This document shows positions 54,714 to 64,000 of a stretch of DNA of 64,000 nucleotides, piece by piece. The stretch's first letter is position 1; each line of letters starts with the position of its first letter. Made by a program: the position numbers and the translations under genes. Under the pieces are notes generated by a model. The model did no database searches, was not told the origin of the DNA, and saw nothing but the letters and a program-made list of their open reading frames with translations. Source of the DNA: Thermopolyspora flexuosa (lineage in GTDB: Bacteria; Actinomycetota; Actinomycetes; Streptosporangiales; Streptosporangiaceae); NCBI RefSeq assembly GCF_006716785.1, contig NZ_VFPQ01000001.1:186001-250000 (forward strand), in the 5' to 3' direction.

Positions 54714-56498
54714 ATGCCTCAGCACATCTTGACCGCCGTCGCGTGGCCGTACGCCAACGGGCCGCGCCACATCGGACACGTCTCCGGATTCGGCGTTCCG
54801 TCCGACATCTTCAGTCGCTACCAGCGAATGGCGGGCAACAAGGTGCTGATGGTGAGCGGCACCGACGAGCACGGCACGCCCATCCAGGTGCAGGCCGACC
54901 AGGAAGGGGTGAGCACCCAGGAGCTGGTCGACCGGTACAACCGGATCATCGCCGAGGACCTGACCGCGCTCGGCCTCTCCTACGACCTGTTCACCCGCAC
55001 CACGACCCGCAACCACTACGCGGTCACCCAGGAGATCTTCCGCGGCCTGTACAAGAACGGCTACGTGGTGCCGCAGACCACGCTGGGCGCGGTGTCGCCG
55101 TCCACCGGCCGGACCCTGCCCGACCGCTACATCGAGGGCACCTGCCCCATCTGCAAGTACGACGGGGCGCGCGGCGACCAGTGCGACAACTGCGGCAACC
55201 AGCTCGACCCGATCGACCTGATCAACCCCCGGTCGAAGATCAACGGGGAGACGCCGAAGTTCGTCGAGACCGAGCACTTCATGCTCGACCTGCCCGCGTT
55301 CGCCGACGTGCTCGGCTCCTACCTGCAGAGCAAGCACGGCGAGTGGCGGCCGAACGTGCTCAGGTTCTCCCTCAACCTGCTCAACGACCTGCAGCCGCGC
55401 GCCATCACCCGCGACCTCGACTGGGGCGTCCCGATCCCGCTGGACGGCTGGCGCGACCTGGAGAACAAGCGGCTGTACGTCTGGTTCGACGCCGTCATCG
55501 GCTACCTCAGCGCGTCGATCGAGTGGGCCAAGCGGTCCGGCGACCCCGACGCCTGGCGGGCCTGGTGGCAGTCGCCCGACGCCCGCAGCTACTACTTCAT
55601 GGGCAAGGACAACATCGTCTTCCACTCCGTGATCTGGCCGGCGATGCTGCTCGGCTACAACGGGGAGGGGGCGAAGGGCGGCAGCCCCGGCTCGCTCGGC
55701 CGGCTCAACCCGCCCACCGAGGTCGTCTCCAGCGAGTACCTGACGATGGAGGGGCGCAAGTTCTCCTCCTCCCGCCGGGTCGTGATCTACGTGCGGGACT
55801 TCCTGTCCCGGTACGACGCGGACGCGCTGCGGTACTACATCGCGATCGCCGGGCCGGAGACCCAGGACACCGACTTCACCTGGGCCGAGTTCCTCAACCG
55901 GAACAACGGCGAGCTGGTCGCGGCCTGGGGCAACCTGGTCAACCGGTCGATCTCGATGGCCGCGAAGAACTTCGGCGAGATCCCGCAGCCGGGTGAGCTC
56001 ACCGACGCCGACCGGGCGCTGCTCGAGCGGTCGAAGGCGGCGTTCGCGACGGTGGGCGCCGAGCTGAGCCGGTCCCGGTTCAAGAACGCGCTCACCGAGG
56101 CGTTCAACGTGGTGCGCGAGGCGAACAAGTACCTCGCCGACCAGGCCCCGTGGAAGCTCAAGGACGACCCGGACCGCCAGCGGTCGATCCTGTACGTGGC
56201 GCTGCAGATCGTCGACGACGCCAAGACCCTGCTCACGCCGTTCCTGCCGAGCTCGTCGAACAAGGTCTACAAGATGCTCGGCGGCGAGGGCACCTGGTCC
56301 TCCATGCCGGAGCTCCGCGAGGTCGAGGAGGAGGGCGGCCGGCCGTACCCGGTGATCACCGGCACGTACGAGGACGACGTCGCCACCTGGGAGTCGCGGC
56401 CGATCCGGCCGGGCACCCCGCTGTCGGCCCCGACGCCGCTGTTCCGCAAGCTCGACCCGAAGATCGTCGACGAGGAGCTGGCCCGCCTTGAAGGGTGA
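54714..56498 (+). CDS. metG: Methionyl-tRNA synthetase
   Basis: A 594-residue class I synthetase. The HIGH motif is [10 protein letters not shown] (18-27). The zinc knob with four cysteines is [20 protein letters not shown], near residue 144. The KMSKS equivalent is [15 protein letters not shown], near residue 346. The alpha-helical anticodon domain fills the C-terminus; no EMAP-like tRNA-binding tail is present. It attaches methionine to initiator and elongator tRNAs. It overlaps tatD. Confidence 0.97.
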
Positions 56499-57345
56499 GC
56501 GGCCGCCGGCCCCCGAGCCGCTGGCCGGGGAGGTGTTCGACAGCCACTGCCACCTCGACATCATGGTGGGCGCGCGCGCCGCGTCCTCCGGCGACCCGAT
56601 CGCCCTCGCCGCCCAGGCGGCGGGGGCGGACGTGGCGCGCATCCTGGAGGAGTCGCGCGCGGTCGGGGTGACCCGGGTGGTCACCATCGGGTACGACCTG
56701 CGGTCGTCGGAGTGGGCGGCCGAGACCGCCGCCCGGCATCCCGACGTGTACGCCGGGGTGGCGATCCACCCGAACGAGGCCGGGTCGGCGACGGACGAGG
56801 CGCTCGCCCGCATCGAGGAGCTCGCCAGGCTGCCGCGGGTGCGGGCCGTGGGGGAGACCGGGCTCGACTACTACCGCGACTGGGCGTCCCGCGAGGACCA
56901 GCACGCCTCGTTCCGGGCGCACATCGAGATCGCCAAGCGCACCGGCAAGGCCCTGGTCATCCACGACCGGGAGGCGCACGACGACGTGCTGCGCGTGCTC
57001 GCCGAGGCCGGGGCGCCGGACGTGGTGGTGTTCCACAGCTTCTCCGGCGACGCGGAACTTGCGAAAAAGTGTGCGGATGCCGGATATTACATGTCGTTCT
57101 CGGGGCCGGTGACCTACAAGAACGCCGCATACCTTCGGGAAGCGGCGAAGGTGGCTCCAAAAGAGCTGATTCTTGTGGAGACCGACGCTCCTTATCTGCC
57201 GCCGACACCCCATCGCGGCAAACCGAACTCCCCTTACCTGATCCCGCTCACGCTGCGTTGCCTCGCCGAGGTGAAGTCCATTCCGGAGGACGAGCTCTGC
57301 GCGGTGATCAGCGCGAACGGCGAGCAGGTCTTCGGCGCCTGGTGA
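56488..57345 (+). CDS. tatD: TatD-family metal-dependent DNase
   Basis: A 285-residue TIM-barrel hydrolase with [11 protein letters not shown] (metal His pair), [20 protein letters not shown] (Glu), [11 protein letters not shown] (His), [20 protein letters not shown] and [17 protein letters not shown] (Asp). It starts with TTG at 56488, overlapping metG by 11 bases, so expression depends on metG. metG-tatD-rpf-rsmA is a standard actinobacterial order. Confidence 0.94.
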
Positions 57346-57410: not shown

Positions 57411-57625
57411 GGCCCGGAACCGGGAGGCCGGTAATCGTCTCCCCGCCTTTCCTCACCGGCGGCGAAAGTCAAGCGTGGCCAATGTCACGCTGTGCGTTGC
57501 GGTGATCCGGTTGAGGCCCCTGTGATCTCACCGCTACCGTCAACCCGGCGACGCACCGTGGCGATAGTCCGGGTCGGCGCACTGAGGACGACGTACTGGT
57601 GACGATGTGCTTGGGGAGCCGATCA

Positions 57626-60340
57626 ATGCCTGACCGTCACGCCAGGATCCTCACCCAGCCGACATCGATGCCCGCCCGTCCGACCGCAGACCACGCCGCC
57701 GCCGTCCCGCCCGCCCGTGAGCCGATCTCCGACGCCTTCCCCGTACCCGTCCCCGGCCCCGGTGACGATCCCGGCCGGCCGCAGGATGGCACGCCGGCGG
57801 AGGGCATGGCCGAGCCGGCGCGCGGGCCGCAGGACGGGACGCCGCCACAGGGTGTGACGGCTCCGTCGCATGTCCCACAGGCCGCTCCCCGGCCTCCTCA
57901 GCGTGATTCGGTCCCGCCGCGGCGTCCAGCCGGTGCCGCGCCGCCTTCCGGTGAGGGCGGGCGGCCGGGTGCAGGTGGTGGGCCTGCACCCGTACGTGTT
58001 TCCGGCCCGGCCCGTGAGGGCGGGGCGCCGCAGGGCGGGACGCCGCCGCAGGGCATGCCCGGTCCGGTGCGTGCGCCACAGGGCGGGACCCCGCCGCAGG
58101 GTGCGACTCCGCCGCACGGCATGACGGCTCCTGCGCGTGCTCCCCAGACCGTCCCACGTCCTCAGCAGCGCGACTCGGCCCCGCCAAGACGCCCTGCCGG
58201 TGCCGCGCCGCCTTCCGGTGAGGGTGGGCGGCCGGGTGCAGGTGGTGGGTCTGCACCCGTACGTGTTTCCGGCCCGGCCCGTGAGGGTGGCGCGCCGCAT
58301 GGCGGGACGCCGCCGCAGGGCATGGCCGATCCGGCGCGTGCGCCACAGGCCGCGCCGCGGCCTCCACAGCGAGACTCCAGACCGCAGGGGCATCCCGGCA
58401 CGCCCGCGCCGCCCGCCGGTCAGCGTGGTGGGCGACCGGATGCCGGTCCGGCACCGGTATCCGGCCCGAGGCGCGAAACCGGTGCACCGCAGGGCGGGAC
58501 GCCGCCGCAGGGGGTGATGGCTCCTCCGCGTGGGCCGCAGGCGGCTCCGCGGCCTCCGCAGCGTGATGCGGCTCCGCCGGGGCGTCCGGCCGGTGGCTTA
58601 CCCCCTGCCGGGGCGAGCGGTGGACGACCGGAGGGAGGTCCTCCCGCTGCGCCCGCACGGGTCGCCGGGCAGAGGCGGGAAAACCGTGCTCCCCAGGGCG
58701 GGACGCCGCCGCAGGGCATGGCCGAGCCGGCGCGTGGGCCGCAGGACGCTACGCCGCCACAGGGAGTGACGGCGCCTTCGCGTGCACCACAGGCGTCTCC
58801 GCGCCCTCAACAGCGTGATTCGGCCCCGCCGGGGCGTCCGGCCGGTGCCGTACCGCCTGCCGGCGACGGTGGTAGGCGGACCGAGGGGAATCCTGCGCCT
58901 GCGCCCGCGCATGCCTCCGCGAGGCGTGAGGACGGTGCTCGTCAGGGCGGCACGCCGCCACAGGGTGTGACTCGGCCGCAGGGCATGGCCGGCCCGCCGC
59001 GTGGGCCGCAGGCGGCTCCGCGGCCTCCGCAGCGTGATCCGGCCCCGCCGGGGCGTCCGGCCGGTGCCGTACCGCCTGCCGGTGACGGTGGTGGGCGGCC
59101 GGAGGCGGGTCCGGCGCCTGTTCCCGGGCCGGTGCGTCAGGCCGAGCCGCCGCAGGACGTGCCGCGGCCCTCGCAGCCGGACGGCGCGTCACAGACGACT
59201 CCCGGCCACTCCGCGTCGCCCGCCGGTGAGCGCGACGAGCAGCGGCCGCAGGCGGGTCCGGTGCCCGAGCACGACCGGGAGGCCGCGCCGTCGCAGGAGC
59301 CCGCGCGGAGCCCTGCCTCGCCGCCGGTGGCCGAGGGTGCGGCGGAAGCCGCAGGCGGCGACGGCCAGGCTCAGCGGCGCCGGAAACGGCCCGCGCCCGC
59401 GGTGAGCGGCGCCAAGCCGCGGACGCGCAAGGGGAAGGGCAGGCCGGGGCGGTCGCGCCGGATCTCGTCGATCCTGATCGGGGTCGCCGGCTCGCTGGTC
59501 GGCGGTGTCTCCCTCGGCATGTTCGTCGTGTTCGGCCTCGCCAAGGAGGTCCACCTCATGGTGGACGGCGAGCCGATCGACATCCACACCTTCGCCGACA
59601 CCGTCGCCGAGGCGCTGGAGCGTGCCGACGTGAAGATCGGCCCGGCCGACTACGTCTCGCCGAAGCCCACCCAGCGCATCGCCGACGAGGGCCGCATCGA
59701 GGTACGGCACGCCCGCAAGCTCACCCTGATCAAGGACGGCCGCACCACGGTCCACACCGTCACGGCGCTCAACGTCGGCGACGCGCTCGAGGAGCTCGAC
59801 CTCGACCCCGACAAGGTCAAGCTCTCCGCGTCGGTGATGCGGCAGATCCCCCTCACCGGCCTCCGCCTCAGCGTCACCACCATCCGCGAGATCGACGTGG
59901 TCAAGGACGGGCGGCGGATCCGCATGACCACCACCGCCCGGACCATCCGCGAGGCGCTGGAGAGCAACGGCATCACCGTCGGCAAGGACGAGAAGGTACG
60001 GCCCAAGCTGTCCGCCTTCCCGGAGGACGGCCAGGTGGTCCGGATCATCCCGGTCACCCCGCCGCGCACCGAGCCGATCCGCCCCGAGGTCGCCCGCCTC
60101 AACTGGAACGCTCTCGCCCAGTGCGAGACCGGCGGCAACCCGCGCGCGGTCGACCCGGCGGGCACGAACTTCGGCATGTACGCGATCAGCCTGCAGATGT
60201 GGCGCGCGGTCGGCGGCAAGAAGACCCCAGTGGACTGGCCCGCCGAGGAGCAGACCTACCGGGCCCAGCTGCTCTACCAGAAGGTGGAGGGCCGCTGGCA
60301 GCGGCAGTGGCCGAACTGCGGGTCCCGGCTCTTCGACTGA
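57626..60340 (+). CDS. RpfB-like resuscitation-promoting factor with very long proline-rich N-terminus
   Basis: A 904-residue protein. About 600 N-terminal residues are Pro/Gly/Ala/Arg-rich and repetitive, with recurring phrases such as GGTPPQGM and APPGRPAGAVPPAGDGG. A basic stretch ([14 protein letters not shown]), one transmembrane segment (SILIGVAGSLVGGVSLGMFV) and three DUF348 units follow (LMVDGEPIDIHTFADTVAEA, LTLIKDGRTTVHTVTALNVG, IDVVKDGRRIRMTTTARTIR). The C-terminal Rpf lytic domain begins LNWNALAQCETGGNPRAVDP with the catalytic Glu. No G5 domain is seen between them. The ATG at 57626 after GGGGAG is preferred over the GTG at 57599. It would cleave peptidoglycan outside the cell while the long tail stays in the cytoplasm. 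Confidence 0.85.
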   Translation: MPDRHARILTQPTSMPARPTADHAAAVPPAREPISDAFPVPVPGPGDDPGRPQDGTPAEGMAEPARGPQDGTPPQGVTAPSHVPQAAPRPPQRDSVPPRRPAGAAPPSGEGGRPGAGGGPAPVRVSGPAREGGAPQGGTPPQGMPGPVRAPQGGTPPQGATPPHGMTAPARAPQTVPRPQQRDSAPPRRPAGAAPPSGEGGRPGAGGGSAPVRVSGPAREGGAPHGGTPPQGMADPARAPQAAPRPPQRDSRPQGHPGTPAPPAGQRGGRPDAGPAPVSGPRRETGAPQGGTPPQGVMAPPRGPQAAPRPPQRDAAPPGRPAGGLPPAGASGGRPEGGPPAAPARVAGQRRENRAPQGGTPPQGMAEPARGPQDATPPQGVTAPSRAPQASPRPQQRDSAPPGRPAGAVPPAGDGGRRTEGNPAPAPAHASARREDGARQGGTPPQGVTRPQGMAGPPRGPQAAPRPPQRDPAPPGRPAGAVPPAGDGGGRPEAGPAPVPGPVRQAEPPQDVPRPSQPDGASQTTPGHSASPAGERDEQRPQAGPVPEHDREAAPSQEPARSPASPPVAEGAAEAAGGDGQAQRRRKRPAPAVSGAKPRTRKGKGRPGRSRRISSILIGVAGSLVGGVSLGMFVVFGLAKEVHLMVDGEPIDIHTFADTVAEALERADVKIGPADYVSPKPTQRIADEGRIEVRHARKLTLIKDGRTTVHTVTALNVGDALEELDLDPDKVKLSASVMRQIPLTGLRLSVTTIREIDVVKDGRRIRMTTTARTIREALESNGITVGKDEKVRPKLSAFPEDGQVVRIIPVTPPRTEPIRPEVARLNWNALAQCETGGNPRAVDPAGTNFGMYAISLQMWRAVGGKKTPVDWPAEEQTYRAQLLYQKVEGRWQRQWPNCGSRLFD

Positions 60341-60480: not shown

Positions 60481-61332
60481 GTGAGCCTGCTCGGCCCGGC
60501 GGACATCCGGGTGCTGGCCGACAAGCTGGCCCTCCGGCCGACGAAGCGGCTGGGCCAGAACTTCGTGATCGACGGCGGCACCGTGCGCCGCATCGTCCGT
60601 ACCGCTGAGCTCAGCGCCGACGACGTGGTGATCGAGGTGGGCCCGGGCCTGGGCTCGCTCACCCTCGCCCTGCTCGAGCAGGTGCGCAGGGTGATCGCGG
60701 TGGAGATCGACCCGGTGCTCGCCCGGCAGCTGCCGCACACCGTGGCCGAGCGCATGCCCGAGGCGGCCGACCGGCTCACCGTCATCACCGCCGACGCGCT
60801 GCGGCTGCGCCCGGACGACCTCGACGAGGCCCCGGACGTGCTCGTCGCCAACCTGCCGTACAACGTGGCCGTGCCGGTCGTGCTCCACCTGCTCGAGGTG
60901 CTGCCCACGCTGCGCGGCGGCCTCGTCATGGTGCAGGCCGAGGTGGCCGACCGCCTCGCCGCCCGCCCCGGCTCCAAGATCTACGGCGTGCCCTCGGTGA
61001 AGACCGCCTGGTACGCCGAGGTGCGCAAGGCCGGTCCGGTCGGCCGTACCGTGTTCTGGCCGGTGCCGAACGTCGACTCCGGCCTGGTCGCCCTCGTCCG
61101 CCGCGACCCGCCCCCGACCGCGGCCACCCGCGAGGAGGTCTTCGCCGTCGTCGACGCCGCCTTCGCCCAGCGCCGCAAGACCCTGCGCGCCGCACTCGCC
61201 GGCTGGGCGGGCGGCGCCGCCCGCGCCGAGGAGATCCTCAAGGCCGCCGGCATCGACCCGGCCGCCCGGGGCGAACAGCTCGAGATCACCGACTTCGCCC
61301 GGATCGCCGAGGCCGCCCGGAAAATCGGGTAG
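60481..61332 (+). CDS. rsmA: 16S rRNA (adenine(1518)-N6/adenine(1519)-N6)-dimethyltransferase
   Basis: A 283-residue KsgA-type enzyme. It has [20 protein letters not shown] (family N-terminus), motif [21 protein letters not shown] and motif [19 protein letters not shown]. The C-terminal four-helix part includes [20 protein letters not shown]. It dimethylates two adenines near the 3' end of 16S rRNA. GTG start after GGGAG. ispE, which usually follows, is not here. Confidence 0.96.
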
Positions 61333-61709: not shown

Positions 61710-62534
61710 CTACGGCCACCTCGCCCGGCGGTGGGCGTCGGCGAGGGTGTGCACGATCTCCGGGGCGGTCGGCCGCGGCGCGGGGGAGCGGGAGAGGGCG
61801 CGGCGGACCAGGTGGTCGAGCGGCCGGGGGAGGTGGCCGAGGCGGGGGTCGGCGTGGACCACGCGCTCGGCCATGGTGAGCGGGTCGCCCTCGCCGAAGG
61901 GGTGGATGCCGCTCGCCGCGTACGCCACCAGGCAGCCCCAGGCGAAAATGTCCGCGGCCGGGGTCACCTCGCCGCCGGTCACCTGCTCGGGGGCCCACCA
62001 GCCGGGGGAGCCCACGACCTCGCCGGTGAGGGTCTCGACCGTCGCGTGCCGGAGCGCCCGGGCGATGCCGAAGTCGATCACGCGGGGACCCGCCGCGGAG
62101 AGGATCACGTTCGCCGGTTTCAGATCCCGGTGCACCAGGCCGGCCGCGTGGATCGCGGCCAGCGCGGCCGCCGTGCCGTACGCGGTCTCGAGCAGGAGCG
62201 CGGGCTCCAGGGGACCGGCCTCGCCGACCCGCTCGGCCAGCGAGATGCCCTCGATGTACTCGGTCACCAGGTACGGCCGGCCGTCCCCGGTCACCCCGCT
62301 GCCGAGCACCCGGGCGGTGTGCGGCGACACCACCCGGCGGGTGTGCGCCACCTCGGCGCGGAACCGCGCCACGAGGCCGGGGTCGGCGGCGTACTCGCGG
62401 CGCAGCAGCTTCACCGCGACCGGCCGCCCCGCCGGGTCCGCGCCGAGGTAGACGGTCCCCATGCCGCCCTCGCCGAGGCAGCCCAGCAGGGTGTAGCCGC
62501 CGATCCGCGCCGGGTCGCCCGCCCGCAGGGGCAT
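61710..62534 (-). CDS. Serine/threonine protein kinase (soluble)
   Basis: A 274-residue Hanks-type kinase consisting of little more than the catalytic domain. It has the glycine loop LGEGGMGTVYLG, VAVKLLRRE (Lys), HRDLKPANVILS (catalytic loop), DFGIARALRH (DFG), then WWAPEQVTGGEVTPAADIFA. There is no membrane segment or PASTA domain, unlike PknB. Start ATG at 62534. It lies upstream of the rsmA-convergent small gene and downstream of the FG-GAP gene on the same strand. Substrates unknown. Confidence 0.9.
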   Translation of the reverse strand: MPLRAGDPARIGGYTLLGCLGEGGMGTVYLGADPAGRPVAVKLLRREYAADPGLVARFRAEVAHTRRVVSPHTARVLGSGVTGDGRPYLVTEYIEGISLAERVGEAGPLEPALLLETAYGTAAALAAIHAAGLVHRDLKPANVILSAAGPRVIDFGIARALRHATVETLTGEVVGSPGWWAPEQVTGGEVTPAADIFAWGCLVAYAASGIHPFGEGDPLTMAERVVHADPRLGHLPRPLDHLVRRALSRSPAPRPTAPEIVHTLADAHRRARWP

Positions 62535-62673
62535 GCGACCGCGCGGAAACCTGGACGTGCGCGGAAAATGGCGCGCGCCTGGGCGCTGTGTGCGATGCAA
62601 AAGATCCCCCTCGACGCTTGGTCCCCCTCGGAAACGCAGGCGCGGAACGGCGCGTGGACGCGCCGCCGCCGGG

Positions 62674-64000
62674 TCACCCGGTCACGACGGCTCCGAAGTC
62701 CACGGACGCGGCGATCTCGCGCGACCGGGACAGGCCGCCGGCGTGCGGGAGGTGGGGGATGCCCTTGTAGCCCGGGGCCAGCAGGTGCACGTCCCGGTGC
62801 ACGCCCTCGCCGAGCAGCCGGACGAGCGCGACCGCGCCGCCGTGCGTGGCCTGCTCGTCGGGCACGCCGACCGCCATCCACTCCTCGCCGACGCCGGTCA
62901 CCGACCAGCCGAAGTGGTCGTAGGCCTGGATGCGCACCCGCCCCTCGGTGACGAACGAGCCGGGTCCGCCGTCGAGCGGCACGACCGTCACCGAGCCCGC
63001 CTCGGGCAGCCCGCGCACGGCCTCGAACGGGGCGCCGACGAGCAGGTTCCCGCCCGCGAACCCCAGCGCGTGGCCGAACTCGTCGCCGCGCTCCGGCGCG
63101 TCGGGCAGTCCGCCCGCCCCCTGGCGCAGCAGGCGCACCGCCCGCGGCCCGGCCTTCCCGCCGGCCTCGTAGAGCCGTACCACGCCCGCGTCGGTGGCCT
63201 CGCCCACGTCCGCGCCCGGGGCACCGGCCGCGAGGTAGCCCAGGCCGCCCCACTCGCCGTAGGCGAGCGCGTGGCCGTACCGGTCGCCCGCCCGCTCCGG
63301 CAGGCCGTCGTCCGCCCCGGCCAGGTGGCGGCTCACCGCGTGCACCCTGCCGCCGCCGCGCCCGGTCACGTCGTACACGATCGTGATCGCGCCCGCGTCG
63401 CGCCCGGCCCCGGCCTCGATGTCCTCGTACGGCGCGCCGATCACCAGGTCGAGGGCCTCGGGGTCGCCGCCGAGCCGCCCGAGCGCGAGCGACCAGCCGA
63501 ACATGTCGCCGGGCTCGGCGACCCCCGGCACGCCCGGCGTCTCCTGGGTGATCCGCAGCGCCTTGGCCACCTTGCGGCCCGGCCCGACGGTGAACACGTG
63601 GACCGCGCCCGCCCGGCGCACTCCGCCCACGTCCTCGTACGGCGCGCCGACCGCGACCACGCCCTCGGCGGCGGCCACCGACCAGCCGGCGTTCGCCCCC
63701 GCGCCCGCGTCGACGGGGAGCGCCGTGGCGTCGACCTGGGCGAACGTGGGCCGGGCGCCGCGCCCGCCCCAGTAGATCACCGCGCGGTTCCGCTCGGCGT
63801 GCGGGCTGCCCACCACGAGGTCCGCGCAGCCGTCCCCGTCCACGTCCGCCAGCCGCATCGCCGCAGGCGCCCGCGCGCTGGTCAGCAGCGCGTCGGCCGC
63901 GTCGACCCGCGGGAGGCCCTCCTCGGTGCCGAGCAGCACGTGCACCGACCCGGCGCCGGGTTTGCGGAAGTGCGCGTTCGGGTCGCCCACGGCGAGGTCC
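62674..64000 (-). CDS. FG-GAP/integrin-alpha-like repeat protein (5' end outside the window)
   Basis: At least 442 residues of a repeat protein in open frame to the window edge. Seven or so FG-GAP units are recognisable by phrases such as ADVDGDGCADLVVGSPHAER, MFGWSLALGRLGGDPEALDL, DLVIGAPYEDIEAGAGRDAG and YLAAGAPGADVGEATDAG. They fold into an integrin-alpha-type beta-propeller that often binds Ca2+. The N-terminus, presumably with a signal peptide, is missing. It is probably secreted and followed by the kinase gene. Confidence 0.85.
   Translation of the reverse strand, partial: DLAVGDPNAHFRKPGAGSVHVLLGTEEGLPRVDAADALLTSARAPAAMRLADVDGDGCADLVVGSPHAERNRAVIYWGGRGARPTFAQVDATALPVDAGAGANAGWSVAAAEGVVAVGAPYEDVGGVRRAGAVHVFTVGPGRKVAKALRITQETPGVPGVAEPGDMFGWSLALGRLGGDPEALDLVIGAPYEDIEAGAGRDAGAITIVYDVTGRGGGRVHAVSRHLAGADDGLPERAGDRYGHALAYGEWGGLGYLAAGAPGADVGEATDAGVVRLYEAGGKAGPRAVRLLRQGAGGLPDAPERGDEFGHALGFAGGNLLVGAPFEAVRGLPEAGSVTVVPLDGGPGSFVTEGRVRIQAYDHFGWSVTGVGEEWMAVGVPDEQATHGGAVALVRLLGEGVHRDVHLLAPGYKGIPHLPHAGGLSRSREIAASVDFGAVVTG

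Follow-up and report, generated by a model that had tools for sequence, protein, structure and literature searches.

The window, by which we mean the whole 64,000-nucleotide stretch of Thermopolyspora flexuosa DNA that was analysed, carries an rpfB-like gene (57626..60340, plus strand; open reading frame and Pfam) encoding 904 amino acids with a calculated mass of 92.5 kDa. On the same strand, metG (54714..56498) and tatD (56488..57345) lie upstream and rsmA/ksgA (60481..61332) lies downstream. This order, metG-tatD-rpfB-rsmA, is the classical rpfB context, and tatD and ksgA are described as flanks of rpfB (PMC1084345). The annotated ATG at 57626 has a Shine-Dalgarno-like GGGGAG (57613..57618, plus strand, identified from the sequence) 7 nt on its 5' side; an in-frame GTG at 57599, seen when reading the open frame, is an alternative start that would add nine residues.

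Read from its N-terminus, and with all features on the plus strand, the protein begins with a tail of about 610 residues rich in Pro, Ala, Gly and Arg (57626..59455), which is predicted from composition, repeats and hydropathy to be disordered and cytoplasmic. This is followed by a basic juxtamembrane stretch, QAQRRRKRP...RSRR (59366..59461), a single predicted transmembrane helix (59462..59542; residues ~613-639, with hydropathy peaking at 2.11 on residue 616), three DUF348 domains and an Rpf/transglycosylase-like domain, PF06737 (60095..60319; Pfam and structure comparison). DUF348 domain 1 (59549..59668) was placed by the best PF03990 stretch and the AlphaFold model, domain 2 (approximately 59714..59881) by three PF03990 stretches together with strands and a helix in the model, and domain 3 (approximately 59885..60052) by PF03990 stretches and the model. 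In Pfam, DUF348 scored 97.5 bits, in three stretches when E values up to 1 were admitted, of which two passed 0.001 individually, and PF06737 scored 40.6 bits against a cut-off of 27. The catalytic Glu is present: alignment to RpfE, RpfC and RpfB chains places its codon at 60125..60127 (plus strand), where the CETGG of the window protein aligns with CESGG/CEAGG.

In the AlphaFold model (35-row alignment; mean pLDDT 86.9, pTM 0.59), three strand-helix units that resemble one another precede the Rpf domain. Foldseek ranked M. tuberculosis RpfB (5e27) first, with poor superposition of the whole model (TM 0.23-0.31); RpfC and RpfE structures fit the last domain with TM of 0.76-0.85 by target length and rmsd of 1.7-2.0. 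The G5 domain (PF07501) had no match at E 0.001 in the protein or anywhere in its genome. At the same threshold the window gene is the sole PF06737 match, and no second Rpf gene was found in the genome.

Because the Rpf and DUF348 domains, the gene context and the catalytic Glu of RpfB are all there and G5 is missing, we name the product a G5-less RpfB-family protein; it is a member of that family rather than a typical RpfB. It shares with RpfB (Rv1009) of M. tuberculosis and the RpfB subfamily three DUF348 domains, a C-terminal Rpf domain with a Cys-Glu active site, and the tatD-rpfB-ksgA gene order. It differs from Rv1009 in having a short linker in place of G5 and in adding the 610-residue, predicted cytoplasmic repeat tail. 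Where RpfB has a reported lipid-attachment site (PMC4118796), the window protein has a predicted transmembrane anchor. The enzyme type is already known, and what is unusual is the size of the tail.

Residues ~613-639 form the sole strongly hydrophobic segment of the protein and directly follow the basic stretch. Under the positive-inside rule, the basic side of a transmembrane segment stays in the cytoplasm. An N-in topology is therefore predicted, and we infer that the tail lies inside the cell. The same segment could instead belong to a signal peptide that is cleaved off, in which case the tail would be an outsized n-region; because several Nonomuraea homologues have a Val aligned at the position equivalent to -1, we prefer membrane anchoring.

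A clade of relatives without G5

A scan of named genomes yielded 52 loci, 47 of which (L031-L077) were assigned as G5-less by match continuity and names. The 35-row alignment comprises the exported parts of 33 of these 47 loci, the window protein and L002. DUF348 and PF06737 were found in all 35 aligned Streptosporangiaceae rows, window protein included, and G5 in none of them (threshold 0.001). As a control, G5 was returned in 10/10 two-piece, G5-bearing relatives scanned in the same way, and in 2/2 others. The 33 rows from other genera are 45-56% identical to the window protein. Across the family, 201 of 341 genomes have a match at 1e-20, and by hand count at least 66 of the listed matches span at least 275 of the 281 model positions in one piece.

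These comparisons bear on the initial annotation, which had described an RpfB-like factor with a cytoplasmic N-terminal extension and had presented the lack of G5 as a departure from typical RpfB. Kinship with RpfB holds, on the Rpf and DUF348 domains, the catalytic Glu and the tatD-rpfB-ksgA context, and the lone hydrophobic segment preceded by basic residues predicts the same cytoplasmic side for the N-terminus. G5 is indeed absent from the protein; since none of the 35 clade homologues has it, this absence is clade-wide and not peculiar to the window protein. RpfB proteins of Acrocarpospora, Sphaerisporangium, Nonomuraea, Herbidospora and Bailinhaonella have the same DUF348 and Rpf architecture without G5. 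A literature search, conducted mostly at the level of titles and the opening lines of abstracts, returned no description of a G5-less RpfB clade or of a long cytoplasmic Rpf tail.

Within this clade the catalytic Glu has been lost in 6 of the 35 aligned homologues (L042, L046, L051, L055, L058 and L063; five Nonomuraea and one Herbidospora), with V as the replacement in three and A, M and Q in one each. As judged from the alignment, this suggests repeated loss of enzyme activity. A G5-less clade in which some members are without the catalytic Glu is a natural experiment in what RpfB can do without. In another motif of the Rpf domain (60170-60190), the clade's usual YG[LM]YQFS reads FGMYAIS in the window protein and its same-genus relative; of the 35 rows, 27 keep the Gln of this motif and 32 the Phe.

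Several loci depart from the usual gene form. The rpfB homologue is apparently split in G242, where its N- and C-terminal parts match distant sites on one contig, and in L077 the match is to the C-terminal part only. The frame has the same length in the two, which may both be Nonomuraea wenchangensis. In Nonomuraea candida (L059:4776-7397) the rpfB frame continues for ~545 codons beyond the Rpf domain, into a region that overlaps an FG-GAP gene match on the opposite strand.

Repeats and translation of the tail

The tail (residues 1-610) consists largely of P (24%), A (16%), G (16%), R (11%) and Q (7%) and has no Tyr, Trp or Cys. The computed pI is 11.7 and the net charge +27, and by charge and hydropathy the tail is placed with disordered sequences (0.378 vs 0.429). 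At the DNA level, TRF reports a period of 267 with 2 copies and a score of 799. The annotation's proline-rich N-terminal extension of about 600 residues, repetitive in its DNA, is thus recovered at ~610 residues.

The tail has seven heads, each reading APQGGTPPQG[V/M] or something close to it; cut at these, it yields six units of 64-83 residues. On the plus strand these are unit 1 (57824..58072, 83 residues, containing a second head at 58025), unit 2 (58073..58291, 73 residues), unit 3 (58292..58483, 64 residues), unit 4 (58484..58687, 68 residues), unit 5 (58688..58936, 83 residues) and unit 6 (58937..59137, 67 residues). The tail contains six exact copies of GGTPPQG and eight of TPPQG, where 1000 shuffles of it averaged 0.0 and 0.02. 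Head residues are retained in 9-12 of 11-12 units, while the Gly, Ala and Pro codons there differ synonymously. The Thr of GGTPPQG is present in 12/12 aligned units, and head and QR positions are near-invariant across units and across both same-genus species. The repeat is specific to this gene: all seven DNA-pattern matches lie inside it, and protein matches elsewhere in its own genome are at E 0.1 or worse. The confinement of the DNA-pattern matches led us to reject a repeat family common to other genes of the genome.

Evidence that the repeat is read as protein comes from comparing the six window units with six units of the same-genus relative, one of which is cut by a contig end. In the annotated frame, pN/pS is 0.46 among the window units, 0.50 among those of the relative and 0.52 between the two, compared with 1.33-1.67 in frames +1 and +2 (where codon pairs containing a stop were skipped); the units share history, so that these counts are non-independent and homogenisation of units could mimic part of the constraint. 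The dN/dS of the units is 0.36-0.42, that of the exported part 0.35. Across 66 codon columns, the first, second and third codon positions have diversities of 13.2, 13.6 and 26.4, and none of 20,000 within-column permutations matched the observed third-position excess. Finally, the 610 codons of the tail are free of stops in the annotated frame, whereas the five other frames contain 2-15 stops. On these sequence patterns, the tail is very probably translated in the annotated frame; amino-acid constraint on the repeats is strongly supported, and its direction is unambiguous.

The alternative is that translation begins near the membrane segment at the in-frame GTG at 59402..59404 (plus strand), which would make the repeat an untranslated leader and the product an ordinary short G5-less RpfB. 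The same codon is GTG in the same-genus relative, and Nonomuraea proteins begin at about this place. However, neither GTG has a Shine-Dalgarno sequence, and the ATG at 57626 has a good one. A start close to the transmembrane segment, which the initial annotation had raised against its own reading, is accordingly disfavoured; we consider it highly improbable, and reject an untranslated repeat on the frame-specific constraint seen in pN/pS and in codon-position diversity.

Codon usage in the tail is distinct. GC3 is 0.73 in the tail vs 0.98 in the exported part, and T-ending codons are strongly raised (CGT 0.41 vs 0.03; GGT 0.36 vs 0.04). The same-genus relative has a similar difference (0.71 vs 0.96), and GC3 was below that of the exported part in 7/7 other tails measured. 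The low GC3 indicates an unusual mutational or codon regime, for which repeat turnover rather than function may be responsible.

Tail length in relatives and candidate roles

Among the 66 one-piece family matches listed, long N-tails occur in three, those of the window gene, G001 and G143; the long frame of G197 is a C-terminal run-on. In the same-genus genome (G001), whose exported part is 87% identical, the tail is at least 429 residues long and has the same heads, with the contig ending within the tail. Elsewhere in the clade, tail lengths were taken from Shine-Dalgarno-supported starts, less 35 residues for the membrane segment. By this measure tails are ~20 residues in 24 of 26 Nonomuraea loci (one labelled [Actinomadura] parvosata; the other two loci were unreadable), ~26 in Bailinhaonella, ~42-44 in Herbidospora (6 loci), ~37-122 in Sphaerisporangium (7 loci) and ~41-198 in Acrocarpospora (5 loci). 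Streptosporangiaceae bacterium NEAU-GS5 (L053) also combines a G5-less RpfB-like protein with a very long tail (~485 residues; P 24%, A 23%); it is built of IPGPP repeats and has no GGTPPQG. The window tail is the longest found in this graded series. Those tails of other Streptosporangiaceae genera that were read by eye have no GGTPPQG heads. In a tree of 38 rows, three of them a G5-bearing outgroup, the base of the clade lacks resolution, and the tree does not decide if the tails of NEAU-GS5 and the window protein arose once.

Comparison with relatives, to which the initial annotation had pointed as a check, shows a long tail in the same genus; outside it lengths run from ~20 to ~485 residues, and neither sequence nor length is conserved there. 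The ~20-residue tails of Nonomuraea imply that the tail is dispensable for the protein's core function.

The annotation had further suggested that the tail might bind SH3-like or division proteins and couple a wall hydrolase to a signal in the cytoplasm. The 24% proline content and six PxxPx[RK] motifs would suit an SH3-type docking segment, but PxxP is depleted (19 observed vs 35.1 in shuffles, with 0/1000 as low), [RK]xxPxxP is absent where 4.3 were expected (5/1000 as low) and PxxPx[RK] is not in excess (241/1000 as high). In addition, the bacterial SH3b domains described in PMC1084345 are those of cell wall amidases and peptidases, an extracellular location that argues against an SH3 partner for an inside tail. 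Given the depletion of PxxP, we reject an SH3 ligand as stated and regard a proline-rich docking segment of that kind as very improbable.

We consider the chances about even that the protein is a G5-less RpfB with one N-in transmembrane helix whose disordered tail acts in the cytoplasm as a multivalent tether. The single helix would anchor the protein, with the three DUF348 domains and the lysozyme-like domain in the wall space. Within the genus, a short cytoplasmic N-tail would have grown by tandem duplication of a unit of ~65 residues to its present ~610. Strongly basic and disordered, the tail may bind multivalently through its repeated heads and its charge, and might so keep the wall enzyme close to a cytoplasmic partner at sites of growth or division. 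We count in favour of this reading the domains and the single transmembrane segment, the constraint, the conserved heads, the same-genus tail, the gene-specific repeat and the disorder-side composition; against it we count the lack of conservation outside the genus, the low GC3 and the non-independent, possibly homogenised units.

A parallel in manner of working, for which we claim no homology, may be GlpR of Corynebacterium glutamicum, a membrane protein with a disordered, basic cytoplasmic region. Two regions of this corynebacterial divisome membrane receptor are cytoplasmic and disordered, one of them having a pI of 10.87, and the receptor binds the division protein Glp, although the account drawn on here does not assign binding to a particular disordered region (PMC10522489). 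GlpR differs from the window protein, with its one helix, in having three transmembrane helices.

The main rival to a tether, somewhat doubtful but of real weight, is near-neutral expansion. The tail would then be a translated but tolerated disordered ornament with no specific partner, in which weak compositional selection keeps it rich in Pro, Ala, Gly and Arg and replication slippage lengthens it. The wide spread of lengths inside one genus, Acrocarpospora, is consistent with this, as are the second long tail, in NEAU-GS5, made of other repeats, and the small number of long N-tails among the one-piece matches listed. Counter to this, the pN/pS of 0.46-0.52 and the near-invariant head and QR positions exceed what composition needs, although homogenisation may contribute. 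In the literature consulted, Rpf proteins are treated as secreted or membrane-associated wall enzymes that work from outside. A translated and constrained 610-residue tail with a predicted location on the inside would offer a concrete handle on possible cytoplasmic steering of a wall lytic enzyme.

Linked kinase and FG-GAP genes

Convergent to rsmA on the minus strand lie a gene for a short Ser/Thr kinase (61710..62600, 296 residues) and one for an FG-GAP repeat protein (62674..64000), the frame of which runs beyond the end of the window. Beyond the latter, outside the window and also on the minus strand, is a 607-residue kinase with a transmembrane segment by eye, so that in this genome the FG-GAP gene is flanked by two kinase genes. 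Both a kinase and an FG-GAP gene are found near rpfB in 40 of 47 G5-less clade loci; of the remainder, one has the kinase alone, two the FG-GAP gene alone and four neither (two of these being short loci), in a survey of flanks of at most 5 kb, for which absence is weak evidence. FG-GAP genes are thus present at 42/47 clade loci and at 0/10 G5-bearing loci, whereas a kinase is found at 7/10 of the latter. In the sampled loci it is the FG-GAP gene, not the kinase, that tracks the G5-less clade.

The linkage of Ser/Thr-kinase and FG-GAP genes is a hint of a possible signalling connection. One form of it, decidedly unlikely in our view, is that the membrane kinase, the short kinase or both phosphorylate the invariant Thr of GGTPPQG, giving cytoplasmic control over the wall enzyme or over its partners. 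That Thr is kept in every aligned unit and TPPQG occurs eight times in the tail, and the kinase and FG-GAP genes are linked to rpfB across most of the clade, two kinases flanking the FG-GAP gene here. Yet kinases also stand near rpfB at 7/10 G5-bearing loci, which makes the linkage a weaker argument for a partner specific to the tail, and a long tail is missing from nearly all members of the clade, so the linkage does not track the tail. A fuller version, which we rate as quite improbable, would make the tail a phosphorylatable multivalent array, in which the neighbouring Ser/Thr kinases modify the GGTPPQG Thr and so switch recruitment of the enzyme to the cytoplasmic growth machinery, with the FG-GAP protein outside the membrane. 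If true, such an array would mean that a resuscitation-promoting factor is controlled from the inside outwards.

The arrangement of these neighbours also varies within the clade: many relatives have the kinase and FG-GAP genes between rpfB and rsmA, whereas in the window both are convergent to rsmA.
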